Below, piece by piece: positions 4,171 to 12,888 of a stretch of DNA of 25,601 nt. The stretch covers positions 1 to 25,601 of IMG/VR virus record IMGVR_UViG_3300028008_000097. One strand, written 5' to 3'. The stretch comes from a virus. Position numbers and translations under genes: made by a program. Numbering within the stretch: the stretch's first letter is position 1; every line of letters starts with the position of its first letter. Under the pieces are notes generated by a model. That model was not told where the DNA came from, made no database searches, and worked only from the letters and a program-made list of their open reading frames with translations.

Positions 4171-5222
4171 TGGCTGGAATGTTTGATTTTAAAAGTGCAG
4201 AACAAATACTTGCTGAAAGACAAGAAAAAACTAGGCAAAACACACTTGGTTTAATTAAGAGTTCTCAAGAAGGTATGAAGAGTTCTGAAAAAGCTGCTAG
4301 TAATCTAGGTGCAATGCTTACTAACCTAGTTATAAGTCAGTTTGGTGGTAAGTCAGATGCAGAATTACTTACAGATGTTCGTGATATGAGTGAGACGACT
4401 CAGGTTATGGAACAAGCTGGGGTTGGTGGTGAGGGTTCTGCCCAGTTTGATGGCAAAGGTTCTAGTTATGGTGCTGGTGTAATACAACAAGCAAGGGCAG
4501 AAGAACAAAGAAGGTTAGGTTTGTTACCACAGGATGTGCAAAAGGCTATTGGAGAGGAAAGACAAGCTAAACAACTACAGCAACAATTTTCATCAATTGA
4601 TATGAGTTCTCCTGAAGCCTTACAGAAAGGGTTTAAGGCTGCTGTTACTGCTGGTAATACTGAACTTGCTAATGTATATGGAACTATGTATAAACAATCT
4701 GTAGCAAATAAGAAAGCAGAACAAGCAGTAGAAAAGAAACGTACTTTTAGTAATGTTCAACAACAAGTTATGACACAGTTTGACCCTACCAAAGACCCTG
4801 TAGGATTTAACCAAACTATGTTTAAACAACTTAGCGCAAACCCTTTAACTTCTGATTTAGCTAAAACTTATCAAGATAATCTATTGAAGATAGGTAATGA
4901 TAACATGCAGAAAAAAGCAGACAAAGCCAACGAGCCTTGGACTGCCCCAAACACTAATGTTATAAAAACAGTTTCTTCTGGTACAGTAAATGACCCTTTT
5001 GCTAAAGATTTAAGTGATAATGATTTAATGAATTACAACCTCTATATTTCTTCACGAGCAACAGAACTCCTTAAACAAGTTCCACTTGACCAAGCAATGG
5101 CAAGAGCTAGACAAGAAGCCCAAGCAGGTGTTAAGAAGGGAACAAGTTGGTGGACTGATGATAAATTTAAATCTCCTCGTAAAAAGGGTAACGGAGACTG
5201 GTCAATAGAGGAAGCCAACTAA
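4170..5222 (+). CDS. Putative internal virion (ejection) protein
   Basis: A 350-residue soluble protein, rich in Gln, Lys, Ala and Glu, predicted mostly helical with probable coiled-coil stretches (about 10-45 and 105-150, and around 180-195). No membrane segment, Cys-based motif or enzyme signature is visible. Its position between an S74-containing internal protein and a 924-residue core-like protein, with one-base TAATG overlaps on both sides, suggests it is part of the podoviral internal core or ejectosome (the T7 gp14-16 role). That role is inferred from context; sequence similarity to a named family was not recognised. Confidence 0.6.
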   Translation: MAGMFDFKSAEQILAERQEKTRQNTLGLIKSSQEGMKSSEKAASNLGAMLTNLVISQFGGKSDAELLTDVRDMSETTQVMEQAGVGGEGSAQFDGKGSSYGAGVIQQARAEEQRRLGLLPQDVQKAIGEERQAKQLQQQFSSIDMSSPEALQKGFKAAVTAGNTELANVYGTMYKQSVANKKAEQAVEKKRTFSNVQQQVMTQFDPTKDPVGFNQTMFKQLSANPLTSDLAKTYQDNLLKIGNDNMQKKADKANEPWTAPNTNVIKTVSSGTVNDPFAKDLSDNDLMNYNLYISSRATELLKQVPLDQAMARARQEAQAGVKKGTSWWTDDKFKSPRKKGNGDWSIEEAN

Positions 5223-7996
5223 TGCCAGAGTTTACTATAACTGCACCAGACGGTACTAAGTTTAATGTTACTGCGCCAGAAGGGGCTACTGAGGAAGAAG
5301 CTCTTGAGAAAGTTAAACAGCAGTATAGTAGTCAACAGGAAGAGGTTGAAGAACCTTCTACACTAAGGCAAATAGAGTTTGGTTTTGATGAATCCTCTAG
5401 TGATGTAGAAAACTTAGGGATGATAATGGAATCCTACATGCCTCTTGGTAGGATAGCGTTGGGTGGTGAAGGTTTTATAGATTATGTCTCTCCAGAAGAA
5501 GCCTATGGAACAGAGTTTATGGATGCGTCTTATGACGAAAGAAGAGAGATGCTAAATAAACTAAGAGAAGATGGGTTAAAAAGAGAGTACCAAGACATTT
5601 ATCAAGCTGGGTTAGAAGATAGCACTGCTACTACTGTAGGTGGCTTTGCAGGTATTCTAGCTTCTCCAACCACCCTTGCTCCAGTAGGGCAATCTTATAA
5701 AGCAGCAGCTGGTATTGGGGCTTTGTTAGGTGCGGAGATGACTGCATTAGAACAACTTAGAGTAGAAGGGGAGTTAAGTCCAGAGAAGGTACTTACTTCT
5801 GCTGCTCTTGGTGGTGTGCTTGCCCCTGTTGGTATTGCTGCTGGTAGGGCTGTAACCAAAGGCTTAAATAAAAGAAAGGTAAAAAAAGAAGTAGCTAAGG
5901 CTGATGCAGAAGTTGAGAAGATAGAAACAGTTATGGCTGAAGCAGTTCTTCAAAACGTACCAGTCAAAGAGCTGTCTAACTTTGTACAAAAAGCTACAGG
6001 TAAAACTAAAGAAGAGTTGGTTGAAGTTGCAACAACTGCTAGTAGAAAACCTAAAGTTCCTACAGTAGAACAAGCTAAGATTATCAAGGAAGCTAAAGAA
6101 ACTGGGTTTGATGCTGTGTCTAGGGGTAGTAACTCTACCTTAGACCAATTCTTAGGTGTGGTTAGCACTCGTGTTGGTATGATTAGTGAACCTTTAAAAC
6201 AAAAACTACGTAAGATGGATATGGACATTCATATCAATACTCACGAGGCACTAAAGAAAGTAGAGCCTTTTGCTAAAGCAGTTCAAAAGCTACCGAAACA
6301 ATCTCGTGTACAGATGAATAAGATGTTAATCAATGGAAATTACAAAGGTGCTAATTTACTATTGTCTAGGTACACTGATGATGCTGATACAGTATTAAAG
6401 GGAGTGACCGACCTTCTTGATGAACAACATAATGCGTTAGTTAATGCTGGCTATACAGACCTAACTAAAATTGAAAACTACTTTCCTCGTATGGTAAAAG
6501 ATAAGAAGGGTTTATTTAATGCTATTGGCAAACCCCAACAATCTTTAATTCAAAAAGCTATAGCAGACAGAAAGAGTAAGCTAGGTGTTGATGAGCTGTC
6601 TGCTCTTGAAGAAGATAAAATTATTAACAATGTACTACGAGGCTTTAGTCCTAAAGTTGGTACTGGTGGACTAAGTCAAACTCAAGCTAGAACTATACAA
6701 AACGTTAATGATGATTTATTACAGTTCTATGCAGACCCACTAGAATCTTTAGAGGGTTACATAAGAGGCAACGCATCTAATATAGCAAGACGCAAGTTCT
6801 TTGGTCAGAGTGCTGTACACAAAGGTGACGATTTAATTCGTGTAGAAGACTCTGTAGACAGTCTTATTGCAAGAGAAATGAAAGACTTGTCTCCAGAAGA
6901 TGTAGATACTTTAAAGGGTTTATTAAACGCTAGGTTTATAAACGGAGAAAAAGGTTCTAGCAGAAGTATTCAAGCTCTTAGGAACATAGGCTATGCCACC
7001 ACCATTGCTAACCCTGTTTCTGCGGTAGTCCAGTTAGCTGACTTAGGTGTGTCAGCATATGTTAATGGCTTCAAAAATACTTTAGCTGCAATGATTTCTC
7101 CAAATAAAAAACTTTCTGTTGAAGATTTTGGGTTGCTTGATAAGTTGGCAGAGGAGTTTGCTAACGAAAAGTTTATGGCAAGTACTATGCACACTTTGTT
7201 TAAAAGGTCTGGATTCCAAGCTGTAGATAAATTAGGTAAAAATACTTTTATTAGGGCTGCTTTTAATAAAGGCAAGACAATGGCTAACTCTAAGAAGGGT
7301 CTAGAAAAACTAAGAGATAAGTATGGTAAGGCTCTTGGTAAAGAGTTTGATGTTTTAGTTGATGACCTTAAAGCAGGTAAGGTTACAGATACTACTAAGC
7401 AATTCTTGTGGAGTGAGTTAGCAGACGTACAGCCAATATCATTATCTGAAATGCCTCAGAAGTATTTAGAAGCCCCTGATGGTAGGGTATTTTACTCTCT
7501 TAAATCTTTTATGTTAAAACAAATAGACTTACTAAGAAGAGATATACCCCATCAATGGAAGAAGGGTAATAAAAAAGAGGCAATGAAAAATGCAATAGCT
7601 TACTCTTTAATAGTACCTACAGCTAACATGACAGTTGACCAGCTTAGAAGTATGATGTTGGGCAGACCCCCAGAAATAGAAGATTTAGAAGATGTACCGG
7701 GAGAGTATGCCTCTAATGTACTAAAACTATTTGGTGGTTCTGAATATCTTTTAAACAGGTACATTAAGAGGGGAAATATAGGGCAAGCTGCTCTCTCTGT
7801 AATAGCACCCCCACTCAACCTTCTTGATTCTTTTGGAGAATCTGTTATACAAGCTACTAAAGGAGAAGCCCCTACTGCAATCCTTAAAGATGCGCCTATA
7901 TTTGGTAGGTTCTGGGGTAACTGGTTTGAGGGTGGTTTAGAAAGGCACTTAGAAAATAGACAAACTGAGAAGGAAAAAGAGTTTTATGGCAACTAA
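5222..7996 (+). CDS. Large internal virion protein (DNA-ejection core)
   Basis: The longest gene here, 924 residues. The N-terminus holds a short motif common at the start of large phage virion proteins (FTITAPDGTKFNVTAPEG.TEEEAL, residues about 4-29). A Gly/Ala-rich hydrophobic stretch follows (about 139-170 and 190-210, possible membrane-interacting helices), then a long helical region with Lys/Glu-rich coiled coil (215-290). The motif ENYFPRMVKD (about 418-427) recurs in large phage internal proteins. Another Ala/Val-rich stretch lies near 590-610. I do not see the lytic transglycosylase motif of T7 gp16. Its size and place at the end of the virion block support a channel-forming ejection protein. 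Confidence 0.7.
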   Translation: MPEFTITAPDGTKFNVTAPEGATEEEALEKVKQQYSSQQEEVEEPSTLRQIEFGFDESSSDVENLGMIMESYMPLGRIALGGEGFIDYVSPEEAYGTEFMDASYDERREMLNKLREDGLKREYQDIYQAGLEDSTATTVGGFAGILASPTTLAPVGQSYKAAAGIGALLGAEMTALEQLRVEGELSPEKVLTSAALGGVLAPVGIAAGRAVTKGLNKRKVKKEVAKADAEVEKIETVMAEAVLQNVPVKELSNFVQKATGKTKEELVEVATTASRKPKVPTVEQAKIIKEAKETGFDAVSRGSNSTLDQFLGVVSTRVGMISEPLKQKLRKMDMDIHINTHEALKKVEPFAKAVQKLPKQSRVQMNKMLINGNYKGANLLLSRYTDDADTVLKGVTDLLDEQHNALVNAGYTDLTKIENYFPRMVKDKKGLFNAIGKPQQSLIQKAIADRKSKLGVDELSALEEDKIINNVLRGFSPKVGTGGLSQTQARTIQNVNDDLLQFYADPLESLEGYIRGNASNIARRKFFGQSAVHKGDDLIRVEDSVDSLIAREMKDLSPEDVDTLKGLLNARFINGEKGSSRSIQALRNIGYATTIANPVSAVVQLADLGVSAYVNGFKNTLAAMISPNKKLSVEDFGLLDKLAEEFANEKFMASTMHTLFKRSGFQAVDKLGKNTFIRAAFNKGKTMANSKKGLEKLRDKYGKALGKEFDVLVDDLKAGKVTDTTKQFLWSELADVQPISLSEMPQKYLEAPDGRVFYSLKSFMLKQIDLLRRDIPHQWKKGNKKEAMKNAIAYSLIVPTANMTVDQLRSMMLGRPPEIEDLEDVPGEYASNVLKLFGGSEYLLNRYIKRGNIGQAALSVIAPPLNLLDSFGESVIQATKGEAPTAILKDAPIFGRFWGNWFEGGLERHLENRQTEKEKEFYGN

Positions 7997-8270
7997 GAAA
8001 GATAGTAAGCTAAGTAAGATAGGCGTATCAGGTTATAACAAACCTAAACGTACACCTAATCATCCTACAAAGTCTCATGTGGTTGTAGCCAAGGAAGGCG
8101 ACAAAACTAAGACCATCAGGTTTGGTCAACAAGGAGTAAGTGGTGCAGGTAAGAGTCCTAAGACTGCTGCACAGAAAGCTAGGAAGAAGTCGTTCAAGGC
8201 TAGACACGCCAAGAACATTAGTAAAGGTAAGATGAGTGCAGCCTATTGGGCTGATAAAGTTAAATGGTAA
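7986..8270 (+). CDS. Small conserved basic phage protein
   Basis: A 94-residue, strongly basic protein (many Lys and Arg, few acidic residues) with a recognisable conserved core: KSHVVVAKEGDKTKTIRFG (about 29-47), then QQGVSGAGKS, then KARHAKNISKGKMSAAYWAD near the C-terminus. I recognise this pattern from small proteins of unknown function in marine podoviruses. The charge suggests nucleic-acid binding, perhaps with packaged DNA, but that is inference. The ATG overlaps the end of the large internal protein by 11 bases. It is the first of four tiny basic genes surrounding the AlkB-like gene. Confidence 0.75.
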   Translation: MATKKDSKLSKIGVSGYNKPKRTPNHPTKSHVVVAKEGDKTKTIRFGQQGVSGAGKSPKTAAQKARKKSFKARHAKNISKGKMSAAYWADKVKW

Positions 8271-8287
8271 TAGGAGGAAATAATTAA

Positions 8288-8386
8288 ATGCCAATGGTAA
8301 AAGGTAAGAAGTACCCATATACAGCAGCAGGTAAGAAAGCTGCAAAGAAAGCTGCTAAAAAAGGTACTACTAAAAAACGTAAATAA
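8288..8386 (+). CDS. 32-residue lysine-rich peptide
   Basis: A very short gene with a strong AGGAGG ribosome-binding site at 8273-8278, 9 bases before the ATG. The peptide begins MPMVKGKKYPYTAAGKKAAK and continues with more Lys-Ala repeats; close to half of its residues are Lys or Arg. Small lysine/alanine-rich peptides starting with a K.YPYTA.GKKAA pattern occur in other marine phages. The composition resembles histone-like or DNA-condensing tails. Function unknown; the strong ribosome-binding site is the best sign that it is translated. Confidence 0.65.
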   Translation: MPMVKGKKYPYTAAGKKAAKKAAKKGTTKKRK

Positions 8387-8404
8387 ATTTAAAGGTAATA
8401 TATC

Positions 8405-9583
8405 ATGAAAAAACTTTTAGTTAATATGAGATATTGGATGGCTCCACTACTAATCATTGTTACTGTGCTTAGTATTGTAATGGGTGGTGCTTTTGTATGG
8501 GTTGGTGTTGCATTGTTTGGTGTTGGTATTATTCTTGATACTGCAACAATGAATATAAACCCACCGGGTGCAGGTTTTGATGAGAGTGGTGATACAATGG
8601 GTATGCCAGCACTTCAAAACGCTGTAATGTACGTAATGCTACCTGTATTTGCTCTATTGCAAGTAGTGTTAGCATGGCGTGTAATGCAGTACGTTGATGC
8701 TGTACCCCTAGAAATGACTACAATGCTAGGTCTACCTGTACAGATGGGTATCACAGGTGTAGAACTTGTTGGTGCTGCAATTTCAACAGGTATCTTCGCA
8801 GGTATCGGTATCATCTATGGCCATGAGTTATCTCATACTAAAGGTTTCGCCTTCGTTATCTCTCGTCTTATGATGGGTTTAAGTGGTTCATCTCACTTTA
8901 CGTATGCTCACGTGTACAACCATCACTTAGAGTTAGCACATGAAGATGACCCTGCTACGTCTCCTCGTGGTCGTTCTATCTACCGTCACTTCTGGTTGTC
9001 TCATATGGGTCAATCTAAATTCTTGTACGGCATGGAACGTACACGGTTAGCTAAACTAGGTAAACGTTTTGTAAGCCTAGATAATCGTTGGATTAAAGGT
9101 TATCTTATGAGCCTACCTACTATGTTATTATTCGCATGGGCTGGTGGTTTAGTTGGTATCGCTGCTATGTTCTTAGTATGGACAATCTCTAACTTTGAGT
9201 TAGAAGCATTGAACTACATGGAACATTACGGTCTTATCCGTGAGAAAGGTCAACCTATTGACTACCGTCATTCTTGGGATAACGCTAACTTATTCTCTGC
9301 GTGGTTCTTTATAGAGATAGGTAGACAAGGTGACCATCATGATCGTGGTGAAACACACTTCTGGGAATTAGATGAAGTGGGCTCTCCTAATGCACGTTGT
9401 GGTTACTTTACTGAGTTCGTAGTAGCACTGTTCCCACCCCTATATCATGCTATGATGAAGAAGAAGTTAGCTACTTGGGATAGAGACTTTGCTACTGAAG
9501 GTGAGTTACAAATAGCTGCTAAGATTAATGAGCAAGCAGGTTATACAATGCCTGAAGGTCACAACTCTTATAAGGCAATCTAA
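8405..9583 (+). CDS. alkB-like: AlkB-like membrane di-iron alkane monooxygenase family protein
   Basis: A 392-residue integral membrane protein of the AlkB/fatty-acid desaturase-hydroxylase superfamily. AlkB enzymes hydroxylate terminal carbons of alkanes in the cytoplasmic membrane using O2, a di-iron centre and electrons from rubredoxin. Visible features: hydrophobic segments at about 12-44, 70-97, 115-137, 235-262 and 335-350; His box 1 H140-E-L-S-H144; box 2 H169-V-Y-N-H173-H174 followed by EDDPATS, matching the EDPAxS of AlkB; the HYG motif NYMEH274YGL; and box 3 RQGDH311H312. In canonical AlkB box 3 is LQRHSDHH, so the first His is Gln308 here. Length is near the family norm (about 400), so the gene looks intact. 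Arginine codons are 12 CGT, 1 CGG and 3 AGA, unlike neighbours dominated by AGA/AGG, which suggests separate ancestry. No rubredoxin is nearby. It could instead act on another hydrophobic substrate such as a fatty acyl or aromatic side chain. Confidence 0.88.
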   Translation: MKKLLVNMRYWMAPLLIIVTVLSIVMGGAFVWVGVALFGVGIILDTATMNINPPGAGFDESGDTMGMPALQNAVMYVMLPVFALLQVVLAWRVMQYVDAVPLEMTTMLGLPVQMGITGVELVGAAISTGIFAGIGIIYGHELSHTKGFAFVISRLMMGLSGSSHFTYAHVYNHHLELAHEDDPATSPRGRSIYRHFWLSHMGQSKFLYGMERTRLAKLGKRFVSLDNRWIKGYLMSLPTMLLFAWAGGLVGIAAMFLVWTISNFELEALNYMEHYGLIREKGQPIDYRHSWDNANLFSAWFFIEIGRQGDHHDRGETHFWELDEVGSPNARCGYFTEFVVALFPPLYHAMMKKKLATWDRDFATEGELQIAAKINEQAGYTMPEGHNSYKAI

Positions 9584-9585
9584 CT

Positions 9586-9765
9586 ATGGCGGCTAAGAAG
9601 TCTACAGTAAATAAAGCAGGTAACTACACCAAGCCTACTATGCGTAAGAACTTATTCAACAAGATTAAATCAGGTTCTAAAGGTGGTAAGGCTGGTCAAT
9701 GGTCTGCTCGGAAAGCTCAGATGTTAGCTAAGGAATATAAAGCTAAAGGTGGGGGTTATAAATAA
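9586..9765 (+). CDS. 59-residue basic protein
   Basis: Starts 2 bases after the AlkB-like stop and was found by reading the frame from ATG 9586. The 59-residue product is rich in Lys, Gly and Ala and contains NYTKPTMRKNLFNKIKSGSK (13-32) and KAGQWSARKAQMLAKEY (35-51). The regular K/A/Q helix near the end and the net charge point to nucleic-acid contact. Similar small proteins with a GQWSARKAQ.LAK..K pattern are present in other marine phages; function unknown. Tight spacing suggests it is translated together with the AlkB-like gene. Confidence 0.7.
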   Translation: MAAKKSTVNKAGNYTKPTMRKNLFNKIKSGSKGGKAGQWSARKAQMLAKEYKAKGGGYK

Positions 9766-9766
9766 T

Positions 9767-10021
9767 ATGGCTCTCAAGAAATCACAGAAGAGTTTGAAGA
9801 AGTGGACTAAGCAGGACTGGGGTACGAAGTCAGGGAAGCCTAGTACCCAAGGCAGTAAAGCAACAGGTGAACGATACCTACCTAAGAAAGCTAGAGAAGC
9901 TCTCACTAAGAAAGAGTATGCTGCGACTAGTGCTAAGAAGCGCAAGGACACAAAGGCAGGTAAGCAAGTATCTAAGCAACCAAAGAAGGTAGCTAAGAAA
10001 ACTGCAAGACATCGTAAGTAA
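9767..10021 (+). CDS. Conserved basic phage protein (last gene of virion arm)
   Basis: The 84-residue product starts at ATG 9767, one base after the previous stop. A longer reading from GTG 9749 is less likely because the G-rich stretch at 9748-9755 serves as ribosome-binding site for ATG 9767. Over a third of the residues are Lys or Arg. Recognisable blocks are KKSQKSLKKWTKQDWGTKSG (4-23), GERYLPKKAREAL (33-45) and EYAATSAKKRK (49-59), ending in KKTARHRK. I recognise this as a widespread small protein of unknown function in marine phages. A transcription terminator begins 12 bases after the stop, so this gene closes the rightward transcript. Confidence 0.75.
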   Translation: MALKKSQKSLKKWTKQDWGTKSGKPSTQGSKATGERYLPKKAREALTKKEYAATSAKKRKDTKAGKQVSKQPKKVAKKTARHRK

Positions 10022-10032
10022 TACACACCTAC

Positions 10033-10073
10033 AAAAAAGCCCCCAAGGATATTTTCCAAGGGGGCTTCTTTTT
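10033..10073. terminator. Bidirectional intrinsic terminator between converging arms
   Basis: The stem is AAGCCCCC (10037-10044) paired with GGGGGCTT (10060-10067). It has a 2x2 AA/AA internal loop, a further GGA/TCC pairing (10047-10049 with 10055-10057) and a 5-base loop. On the plus strand it is followed by TCTTTTT, and on the minus strand by six T. It lies between the last plus-strand gene and the last minus-strand gene, exactly where transcripts from both sides would collide. Confidence 0.85.
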
Positions 10074-10082
10074 GCCTATAGT

Positions 10083-10232
10083 TTAGTGAACCTTTTCTTT
10101 TGTACCTAGCATTGCACCTACCTGAGATTCTAAAATATTAACTAACTCTCTCAGTTCAAGGTAGTTCTTAGCCCAGCGTACTGGGTCTGCCTCCATTGCA
10201 TTAGCTAGGTCGTTTACATCTTTATCTATCAT
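10083..10232 (-). CDS. 49-residue hypothetical protein downstream of RNR
   Basis: Starts 3 bases beyond the stop of the ribonucleotide reductase alpha gene, with a GAGGG ribosome-binding site inside the end of that gene. The product (MIDKDVNDLANAMEADPVRW...) is acidic and helical; the stretch at about 19-40 (RWAKNYLELRELVNILESQV) has leucine spacing consistent with a short coiled coil. No known family recognised. It is the last gene of the leftward transcript, just before the shared terminator. Confidence 0.6.
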   Translation of the reverse strand: MIDKDVNDLANAMEADPVRWAKNYLELRELVNILESQVGAMLGTKEKVH

Positions 10233-10235
10233 ACT

Positions 10236-11933
10236 CTAACCCTCACAAGCTACACACTCTCCAGTTGAACCACGAACCCCTGCTTCACTACGTATGTAGT
10301 ACAGGGACTTAATATACTTATCTTTAAACGCCAGCTTATGCACTCTACTAATCTCCTCTTCTGGAGCATCTGCTGGGAAGAATAGGTTTAAGCTTTGTGC
10401 TTGACATATAAACTTCTGTCTTACACTAGCTAACCTAATCAATACCTCTTGGTTAATCTCAAAGGAAGTCTTGAACACTACCTTCTCTTCATCAGTTAGC
10501 CAGTCTACCAACTGTACTGAACCATTGTCTGCTATAATAGCATTGATGTTATCATCGTTATAAACTCCTTTAACTCTCATCAAGTCTACTAACACAGGGT
10601 TGATACGGTTAATCTCTCCTGCTGGGCTACCCTGTACAAACACATTCTTATATACAGGCTCAATACCTTGGCTAACACCACCACAAATAAGTGCACTAGA
10701 ACTGTTAGGAGCAATGGCTAGGAGGTGTGTATTACGTACCCCTGTACCCTTACACCACTTAGGCTCTCCCTTCGTCTTAGCGAGCCACTCAGAGCCTCTC
10801 TTAGCCTCCTTCTGAATGTCTCTAAAGATAGTAGAGTTTAGCATATGTGCTTCCATTGATTCAATATCAATCATGTTCTGTTGTAGGTAGCTGTGGAAAC
10901 CTAGTGTACCTAGACCCAAAGCCCTACCACTCTCTGTAAAACGCACTGCTTTCTCTAAACCTTTAATACCTCTACCCATCTGTATAAACTCTTCAGCCAC
11001 ACAGTCTAGGAATACAATAGCATTTTGTACTGCGTCTGTATCTTTCCACTCATCATACTTAGCTAGGTTCATAGAACTGAGTACACACGTAAAGGTATGG
11101 AACTCATCAGCAGGTAGGGTTATCTCTGTACATAGGTTAGAAGCCTTTACAGTTAAACCATGAGTCTTGTATGCCTCTGGATTAGCCCTGTTCATTCTAT
11201 CTATAAATACAAAGTAACCTTTACCTGTTACCATCTTAACTTTGAGTGCACGTTGGTATCGACTAACAGCTTCTTCCTCACCTGCCTCTAATTGCTCGAT
11301 GAACTTGTCTGTTACTAGCCAACCAATGTTACAATCATCTGGGTTGTTTAATGTATGTGCTGCTACTTCCCAGAAGTCTGTATGCTCTAGTTCGATGTAC
11401 CCTGCCCATGCACCTCTTCGTGTATTTCCTTGCGACACATCTCTGCTAAGTTGGATATAGTCTCGAAGGACTGGCAATACCCCAGAAGCATTACCTCCTG
11501 AACTGATGGAATCTCCTCTACCTCTAATTGCGCCAAGATAAGATGAAGTTCCAAAACCGTTTTTTGTAAGTATTGCAGTTTCTTTTTGTGATTCGTAAAA
11601 TTCATATACACTATCTCCTACATAGTTACCTGAACAACTAACTGGGCATCCTCTGTTTGTGCCCATGTTAGCTAAGACTGGTGTAGAACAAGCTAGGTGT
11701 CCAGACCAGAGTAGGTTAAAGAATACCCTATCCCAATGGTCTTTGTCAACACCCATATGTTTAGATGCTGTACTACTAATACGTTTATAAATACTATATA
11801 AGTCTGGGTACTCCTCTGTTGTGTACTTCTCTTTAAGTAACTGCCAAGCAGAGGTACTATACCATTGTGGTAGCTTACCTGTAGCTTGTAGTTGCTTTCG
11901 TTCTGCGCTTAGTTCTTCGTATATACTCTTCAT
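10236..11933 (-). CDS. nrdA: Class I ribonucleoside-diphosphate reductase, alpha subunit
   Basis: Catalytic subunit that reduces ribonucleotides to deoxyribonucleotides for phage DNA synthesis. From ATG 11933 the protein has 565 residues; a longer reading to 12053 would overlap the beta gene and adds no family sequence. Active-site parts are present: N266, C268 and E270 in SNLCTE, redox cysteines C100 and C283, radical-transfer Y545-Y546, and the C-terminal shuttle pair C560-V-A-C563. The PNSSSALICGG loop (409-419) is typical. The N-terminus lacks the roughly 95-residue ATP cone of E. coli NrdA, so overall shut-off by dATP is predicted to be missing. Its ATG follows the beta stop by one base, so the order is beta then alpha and the subunits are probably coupled. 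Confidence 0.93.
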   Translation of the reverse strand: MKSIYEELSAERKQLQATGKLPQWYSTSAWQLLKEKYTTEEYPDLYSIYKRISSTASKHMGVDKDHWDRVFFNLLWSGHLACSTPVLANMGTNRGCPVSCSGNYVGDSVYEFYESQKETAILTKNGFGTSSYLGAIRGRGDSISSGGNASGVLPVLRDYIQLSRDVSQGNTRRGAWAGYIELEHTDFWEVAAHTLNNPDDCNIGWLVTDKFIEQLEAGEEEAVSRYQRALKVKMVTGKGYFVFIDRMNRANPEAYKTHGLTVKASNLCTEITLPADEFHTFTCVLSSMNLAKYDEWKDTDAVQNAIVFLDCVAEEFIQMGRGIKGLEKAVRFTESGRALGLGTLGFHSYLQQNMIDIESMEAHMLNSTIFRDIQKEAKRGSEWLAKTKGEPKWCKGTGVRNTHLLAIAPNSSSALICGGVSQGIEPVYKNVFVQGSPAGEINRINPVLVDLMRVKGVYNDDNINAIIADNGSVQLVDWLTDEEKVVFKTSFEINQEVLIRLASVRQKFICQAQSLNLFFPADAPEEEISRVHKLAFKDKYIKSLYYIRSEAGVRGSTGECVACEG

Positions 11934-11934
11934 A

Positions 11935-12888
11935 TTACCATGCAAACCTTGTCTCTTGCCAGTCCCTATTATAACTGTTTCCTTGCTTGTGGAAGAAGTC
12001 ATGTAGCTGTGGTGTGTTAATGTTTTTGTAGAACCACTTAGAGATAGGGTCATAGTCTACCTCATACAGTGGTGCTAACCTTAGTTGTTCAAGGCAAAGG
12101 TTTAACCTAGCTTGAATAAAGTTCTTCATCTGTAAGTCTGTGATACCTTTAATCTCTCCCTTCTCGAATATCATATCAATGATACGGGACTCGTGCTCAT
12201 AGATTTTACCACAGGTCTTATAGATTTTCTTATCTAGTTCTTTGTTGTTTAGCTGCTCACTCTCTTCTCTTAGTGTATTGAATAACCAAGCACCTGCTAG
12301 GCTGTGTAGGTTCTCATCCCTTACACTGAAGTTAATACCTGCTGCCATGTTGACTAACTTGTTCTTACCCTCAGCTTGGAAGTGTTTTAGAAAGGCGAAG
12401 TTAGAATACAGTACAGCACCCTCTACGATAGAGCCAACTGCTAGTGAGGCTAACATATCATCACCATCGAACTGTCTGTCTAACCAGTCCATACGTCCAC
12501 GTAGGGTCTTATCTTTAACGTAACTGTTATAGAACTCCTCAGTGTTTAGGTTCAGCACCTCGTTAATCTTGTTGTAGAAAGGTGCGTGTACGTTCAGTTC
12601 AAACATACCAAACACAGAAGCCATACGCTGTATCTCTGGTCGTCTAAACTTCTTACGAATAAAGTCTAGCCAGTAGTCATTACCTACGTGTGTCTCATAC
12701 AAGGTAAATAGTTTTAGCACAGTAACTACCCCGTGCATCTCTGCTTCTGTCAGATTGTTGTGTAGGTCGTGCAAGTCCTTATCCATACCAATCTCTTTAG
12801 CAGTCCAAAATATATCCTCCTGCAACTCTGCAAACTGCTCTGCCTGTGGATATGCAATAACGTAAGCCTCTTGTTTGTCTGTAATCAT
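11935..12888 (-). CDS. nrdB: Class I ribonucleoside-diphosphate reductase, beta subunit
   Basis: Radical-generating partner of the alpha subunit, 317 residues. The di-metal ligands can be placed by comparison with E. coli NrdB: E65 at the D84 position, H101 (H118), E156 (E204), E192 and H195 in DENLH (E238, H241). The radical tyrosine is Y105, four after H101, as in E. coli. The glutamate normally three residues before the first His is Leu here; Glu97 is four before it (FELNVHAPFY), a shifted spacing that may be a subfamily feature. The C-terminus ends in aromatic residues (ETRFAW), as expected for the tail that docks on alpha. The start at 12888 directly follows the MazG gene. Confidence 0.92.
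   Translation of the reverse strand: MITDKQEAYVIAYPQAEQFAELQEDIFWTAKEIGMDKDLHDLHNNLTEAEMHGVVTVLKLFTLYETHVGNDYWLDFIRKKFRRPEIQRMASVFGMFELNVHAPFYNKINEVLNLNTEEFYNSYVKDKTLRGRMDWLDRQFDGDDMLASLAVGSIVEGAVLYSNFAFLKHFQAEGKNKLVNMAAGINFSVRDENLHSLAGAWLFNTLREESEQLNNKELDKKIYKTCGKIYEHESRIIDMIFEKGEIKGITDLQMKNFIQARLNLCLEQLRLAPLYEVDYDPISKWFYKNINTPQLHDFFHKQGNSYNRDWQETRFAW

Follow-up and report, generated by a model that had tools for sequence, protein, structure and literature searches.

AlkB-type enzymes hydroxylate methyl groups and demethylate ethers. In FtAlkB, the irons are bound by nine histidines (PMC10110569), and rubredoxin is the redox partner of AlkB. XylM, encoded on pWW0, is likewise a membrane di-iron hydroxylase, but is paired with the [2Fe-2S]/FAD/NAD reductase XylA. 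For DMS, the conversion to methanethiol and formaldehyde is known from DmoA of Hyphomicrobium sulfonivorans, a soluble flavin-dependent enzyme that is unrelated to the AlkB/XylM-like oxygenase family described here, for which the same reaction is only proposed. Bacterial SBP56 was identified as the methanethiol oxidase MtoX (PMC5739008).

When Kroeber and Schaefer compared Methylophaga thiooxydans on DMS versus methanol, mtoX (MDMS009_211 and 768), a 'fatty acid desaturase' (MDMS009_226), a porin (MDMS009_906) and an 'NAD(P)H flavin reductase' (MDMS009_61) were raised on DMS (PMC6548844). The first enzyme of DMS metabolism was not found; the authors took the induced 'desaturase' as a sign of lipid repair and raised the possibility of an unrecognised hydrolase or monooxygenase (PMC6548844). 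The gene for the missing step 'remains unidentified' (PMC9563715).

Here we analyse an oxygenase gene carried by a virus. We give an about even chance to the proposal that it is a host-derived auxiliary metabolic gene for a membrane DMS monooxygenase in a podovirus-like phage infecting Methylophagaceae, a proposal in which substrate, reaction and host are our inference, as is expression of the gene in infected cells.

Genomic context of the phage gene

The window, which is the whole stretch of DNA analysed, corresponds to an entire linear virus record of 25,601 bases from a metagenome collection (IMGVR_UViG_3300028008_000097). On its plus strand, an intact open reading frame of 392 aa extends from ATG to TAA at 8405-9583. 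This matches exactly what an earlier note on this DNA had claimed, and the HELSH, HVYNHH, NYMEHYGL and DHH motifs listed there were all found. Family, structure and residue comparisons identify the product as an AlkB/XylM-like membrane di-iron monooxygenase of a QxxHH-type subfamily. Judged from sequence only, an A+G-rich stretch (aaaggtaat) 5' of the start codon (8391-8404, plus strand) is a putative ribosome-binding site. A 32-aa lysine-rich reading frame (8288-8386, plus strand) lies immediately 5' of the gene and a 59-aa basic one (9586-9765, plus strand) starts right behind its stop codon.

Further upstream on the same strand are the genes of a 924-aa protein (5222-7996) without family match, likely an internal virion protein by position, and of the small basic phage protein phrog_7595 (7986-8270; E 1.7e-39), which occupies the same position in the related records L001-L003 and L005-L008. 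Downstream, the gene of another small phage protein, phrog_14910 (9749-10021, plus strand; E 1.3e-34), ends the plus-strand block, and a convergent minus-strand block begins with the large and small subunits of ribonucleotide reductase (RNR; 10236-12888; PF02867, 1.2e-77; PF00268, 2.7e-49). An S74/ejection-type virion protein and a tail fibre complete the plus-strand surroundings, and the facing minus strand also encodes DNA polymerase, primase-helicase, exonuclease and metallophosphoesterase; a terminase gene is found at the end. The earlier placement of the gene between virion genes is therefore correct as to phage genes on both sides and slightly loose otherwise, since the gene stands near the end of the virion block, opposite the RNR/replication block.

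Three other IMG/VR records (L001, L002 and L003) align collinearly with positions 7985-10300 of the window at 98-99.5% identity, that is over 2.3 kb and across both gene borders, and L005-L008 keep the order phrog_7595 gene, oxygenase, RNR. These independent contigs rule out an assembly join at contig level. The earlier note had seen no sign of such joins and had named reads that do not span 8270-9770 as evidence against its view, a check to which the contigs give an answer at their level. Directly 3' of the oxygenase gene, about 426 bp with the lysine-rich phrog_14910 reading frame (window 9590-10014) are present in L001-L003 and missing in the otherwise matching L005 and L006.

Distribution and selection in phages

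In IMG/VR, 185 stretches encode the oxygenase, and 220 were obtained with a profile search. By gene content the carriers include podovirus-like phages (the group of the window), a siphovirus-like one (L010, with terminase, portal and protease-capsid-like genes) and T4-like phages (such as L075, which encodes prohead protease, major capsid, a UvsW-type helicase and gp46/47-type proteins), the gene identities in such carrier loci being judged by eye from translations. A tree of 106 sequences requires at least seven switches between phage and bacterium, which argues for repeated capture from bacteria. The dN/dS values were 0.07-0.09 in the window's podovirus group, 0.05-0.14 for T4-like pairs and 0.07-0.09 for bacterial copies. 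The gene is under purifying selection in phages (dN/dS about 0.08), and the metal ligands are all intact in 81 phage-side copies. An intact host-type gene under selection in a true phage genome has the genomic features of a phage auxiliary metabolic gene.

One might suspect a passive passenger or an artefact of assembly that does nothing for the phage, given that the window is a linear 25.6 kb record from a metagenome collection. The independent contigs across both borders, the three phage types, the low dN/dS and the intact ligands reduce the probability of this explanation to almost nothing, and it is refuted in the main.

No redox partner, GST or globin was seen in the phage loci, and mtoX was found in none of 24 viral records, which may be fragments. 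Among cultured phage records there was no carrier. The only two matches, both named 'Acinetobacter phage MD-2021a', were to bacterial alkB1; CAKLQH020000011.1 was rejected as a phage, its isc/hsc, ppiD and siderophore genes marking a bacterial chromosome filed as phage, and CAKLQF020000009.1 also bears this name. Literature searches for AlkB in phages and for virome genes of alkane metabolism yielded nothing specific. Several T4-like carriers contain, by eye, ALAS-like genes (L015 3639-4817, L029 5407-6606 and the region 4473-16904 of L047), and L047 additionally has hemC-, hemE-, PRPP-synthetase- and ClpP-like genes; ALAS in phages is already published (PMC11480375). In several T4-like contigs, a permease-like membrane protein adjoins the oxygenase (L015 8603-9565, L029 11288-12253, L047 11231-12190).

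Predicted fold and iron site

The sole Pfam match of the 392-aa protein is FA_desaturase (PF00487; E 3.6e-25, 89.6 bits versus a cut-off of 29.7), and neither PHROGs nor NCBIfam assigned a family. A sequence search of solved structures (PDB) returned only the AlkB entries 8sbb and 8f6t. The AlphaFold2 model (pLDDT 79, pTM 0.84, with pLDDT of only 45-66 in the vicinity of boxes 2 and 3) superimposed on AlkB 8f6t with a VIA Z of 33.8 over 352 aligned residues (rmsd 3.0; Foldseek E 5.6e-11), and unrelated entries scored far lower. No desaturase is among the fold matches listed for this model, an absence that proves nothing. The protein thus shares with FtAlkB (8f6t/8sbb; PMC10110569) the fold over nearly the whole chain, the order of the His-rich motifs and the NYxEHYGL glutamate, but is only 22-25% identical to AlkB. 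Identity to XylM is about 27% over most of the chain.

His box 1, HELSH (8822-8836, plus strand; H140, H144), and His box 2, HVYNHH (8909-8926, plus strand; H169, H173, H174), are invariant in 155 relatives and seven references. In the NYMEHYGL box (9212-9235, plus strand), H274 is invariant and E273 occurs in every phage copy. The difference lies in box 3, GRQGDHH (9320-9340, plus strand), where H311 and H312 are retained and Q308 replaces the first histidine of AlkB RHSDHH and XylM NHINHH. All 155 relatives have this glutamine (RQxDHH), versus a histidine in 7/7 AlkB/XylM references, so that eight of the nine iron-binding histidines of AlkB are retained. The QxxHH pattern also occurs in front-end fatty acid desaturases; such an iron site can therefore be active. 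A subgroup of 14 bacterial members is altered near the iron site, with Glu273 replaced by Gly and His318 by Tyr (L134, L135, L137, L138, L142-L144, L146, L149, L150, L153, L155, L157 and L161, from SAR86, Porticoccaceae, OCS116 and others).

In the tree, the family is set apart as a clade with a support of 97 and a long stem, outside AlkB and XylM references that are few and have long branches. It is a separate subfamily with an AlkB fold, not AlkB proper.

The Pfam match would also fit a membrane-lipid enzyme: an acyl desaturase or hydroxylase might alter fluidity or serve lipid repair in infected cells, in the manner of cyanophage lipid desaturases. Phage desaturases are known (Roitman 2018, as cited in PMC11480375), an acyl-CoA desaturase occurs in Nitrospirota phages (PMC7678222), and Kroeber and Schaefer read their DMS-induced gene in this sense. 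In two Methylophagaceae MAGs, moreover, the oxygenase gene lies near glycosyltransferase-like (sugar/LPS-type) genes, a context that we set aside as a lipid clue because it is not general. Against a lipid enzyme, both fold and sequence are nearest to AlkB, and the XylA-type reductase, TodX-like channel and mtoX linkage of bacterial relatives suit catabolism better. We consider a lipid role unlikely.

Operon partners in bacteria

Among 80 bacterial loci, a XylA-type Fer2/FAD/NAD reductase was the commonest neighbour family (28 loci), followed by GSTs (22 loci). The oxygenase heads a cluster of globin, glutathione S-transferase, XylA-type reductase and TodX/FadL channel in M. sulfidovorans and M. 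thiooxydans, with a CbbQ gene and a VWA (CbbO-like) gene divergent. The cluster of a streamlined marine gammaproteobacterium consists of oxygenase, GST-like gene, FadL-like porin, reductase and SBP56, with SCO1/SenC divergent; its GST-like gene and porin were recognized by eye and gave no Pfam match. At 17 of the 80 loci, the oxygenase has a MerR-type regulator nearby (e.g. L082 1838-2803, L097 4875-5831 and L170 9660-10568). The one in L170 is beside a gene that by eye is photolyase-like, and light control is possible there.

AlkB reference loci carry rubredoxin, whereas XylM and XylM-like references adjoin a reductase of the same XylA type as the family. The reductase partner was encountered in the bacterial relatives and not in the phage loci. 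The family differs from XylM/XylA in its RQxDHH box, its clade and the lack of a benzyl alcohol/benzaldehyde dehydrogenase context.

These data bear on the earlier note, which had proposed an alkane hydroxylase supplied by host rubredoxin. The AlkB fold and the common HExxH, HxxxHH and NYxEHYGL boxes speak for a true AlkB, and to this extent the assignment to an AlkB-like family stands. Yet with Gln308 in 155/155 relatives, a separate clade and bacterial operons in which a XylA-type reductase takes the place of rubredoxin, there is no support for rubredoxin-fed oxidation of alkanes, and we regard a true AlkB as very improbable. The phylogeny that the note had asked for places the family outside the AlkB and XylM reference clades, subject to the few references and long branches; the rubredoxin need gives way to the reductase, and the link to alkanes and oil to a bacterial context of methylated sulfur compounds (mtoX linkage and probable DMS induction). 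The note is right in that a phage truly carries a membrane di-iron oxygenase with an AlkB fold, which probably acts on host metabolism.

The enzyme may also serve in the catabolism of some other small hydrophobic compound (an alkene, a short alkane, a methylated aromatic or a different methyl sulfide), working as a monooxygenase in XylM fashion and gaining energy and carbon for the phage. An operon in which the oxygenase is joined by [2Fe-2S]/FAD reductase, GSTs, globin and TodX/FadL channel would suit this, as would the same reductase type beside XylM and XylM-like references, and GSTs often act on epoxides. The linkage to and co-occurrence with mtoX in three lineages and the probable induction by DMS favour methyl sulfides, which leaves another substrate as a minor but serious possibility.

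Linkage to mtoX in DMS degraders

One genome (G058) contains an SBP56/mtoX reading frame (C25 256503-257906) with coordinates identical to those published for MDMS009_211 and is therefore the M. thiooxydans strain of PMC6548844. Its oxygenase family gene (C25:247669-248847) lies 7.7 kb from mtoX. The genome has just one further PF00487 gene, on a different contig, and the locus tags that were published for this scaffold's mtoX cluster have low numbers, like 226 and 61. MDMS009_226 is therefore very probably the family member of M. thiooxydans, as judged by scaffold and tag ranges, and MDMS009_61 is probably its reductase partner. The M. thiooxydans family protein is 75% identical to that of the window and 88.5% to that of L009, a phage of the window's group by its RNR genes. 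MDMS009_226 (PMC6548844) is chromosomal and clustered with globin, GST, reductase and TodX-like channel, whereas the phage carries the oxygenase alone.

In the family of M. sulfidovorans (57 genomes), oxygenase and SBP56 occurred together in ten genomes, the oxygenase alone in one, SBP56 alone in two and neither in 44. SBP56/mtoX was thus found in 10/11 oxygenase carriers versus 2/46 non-carriers (Fisher p 1.6e-8, with counts that ignore relatedness). In the family of Hyphomicrobium zavarzinii (103 genomes), all four carriers had an mtoX-type SBP56, which is present in 11 genomes (p 7e-5; the split between mtoX-type and higher-scoring SBP56 was chosen post hoc, and p is 0.006 versus any SBP56). 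Two of these four have the oxygenase within 5-8 kb of the mtoX-type gene. In the family of L119 (25 genomes), co-occurrence tells little because both genes are common (oxygenase in 21/25, SBP56 in 18/25). Here, eight streamlined marine gammaproteobacterial genomes have the two genes 4.5-4.7 kb apart. Genomic linkage of the oxygenase to mtoX in DMS degraders was therefore encountered in three lineages. Many bacterial loci are not beside mtoX, among them the second copy in streamlined genomes and most Thiotrichaceae-like copies. In the tree, the T4-like phage copies related to the L119 family branch as sister to its two paralogues together and not specifically to the paralogue that is linked to mtoX.

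Likely host and proposed role in infection

The window gene nests in a Methylophagaceae clade (support 99 for the set of ten), and its product is 82-86% identical to proteins of Methylophagaceae MAGs and 75% to that of M. thiooxydans. The L009 copy pairs with Methylophaga sulfidovorans (support 97), and its protein is 88.5% identical to that of M. thiooxydans. Judging from this one gene, Methylophagaceae are the likely hosts. When 57 Methylophaga-family genomes were searched with the remaining DNA of the window, no prophage or near match was revealed. The lone weak match (64%; G030:C183:17110-17753, L196) was to the window's metallophosphoesterase gene and perhaps stems from a phage contig in the bin.

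As we picture it, a podovirus-like phage would have taken the oxygenase gene from a Methylophagaceae host. During infection, probably late by gene position, the phage protein would be inserted in the host inner membrane and receive electrons from the host's XylA-type [2Fe-2S]/FAD reductase. It might then hydroxylate a methyl group of DMS, or a near relative, to CH3-S-CH2OH, which would break down to methanethiol and formaldehyde. These predicted products are the substrates of MtoX and of DMS-induced C1 pathways, and their conversion by the host methanethiol oxidase and C1 pathways would supply energy and carbon for phage production. Since the phage records showed neither a reductase nor a GST, globin or mtoX gene, the phage would contribute the membrane subunit only. 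In this it would resemble the phage-borne pMMO subunit pmoC and similar energy-metabolism genes, with which a phage provides a single membrane subunit for an oxidation pathway of its host (as cited in PMC8319345), but in another enzyme family and with another substrate.

Several points weigh against DMS as substrate. In M. thiooxydans, Boden et al. 2010 observed no activity of a DMS monooxygenase and suggested a methyltransferase (as cited in PMC6548844). A membrane enzyme could have been missed in extracts, which is an excuse and not a proof. The authors of PMC6548844 favour lipid repair for the induced 'desaturase', many bacterial loci are away from mtoX, the phage records are without reductase and mtoX, and M. 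aminisulfidivorans was reported to grow on DMS without mtoX.

We give a little less than an even chance to the wider proposal that the family is a membrane di-iron DMS monooxygenase with a QxxHH iron site and the long-missing enzyme with which Methylophaga and other mtoX-bearing bacteria begin to degrade DMS, so that several unrelated phage groups would drive DMS consumption during infection. The phage gene has thus led to a specific family as candidate for this enzyme. If this is true, a climate-relevant step, present on about 220 viral contigs from phages of three types, would join those carried by phages, and surveys based on dmoA would undercount DMS degraders. Even with another substrate, this would be a subfamily of AlkB-fold monooxygenases that phages have captured repeatedly and of which we found no description in the literature searched.
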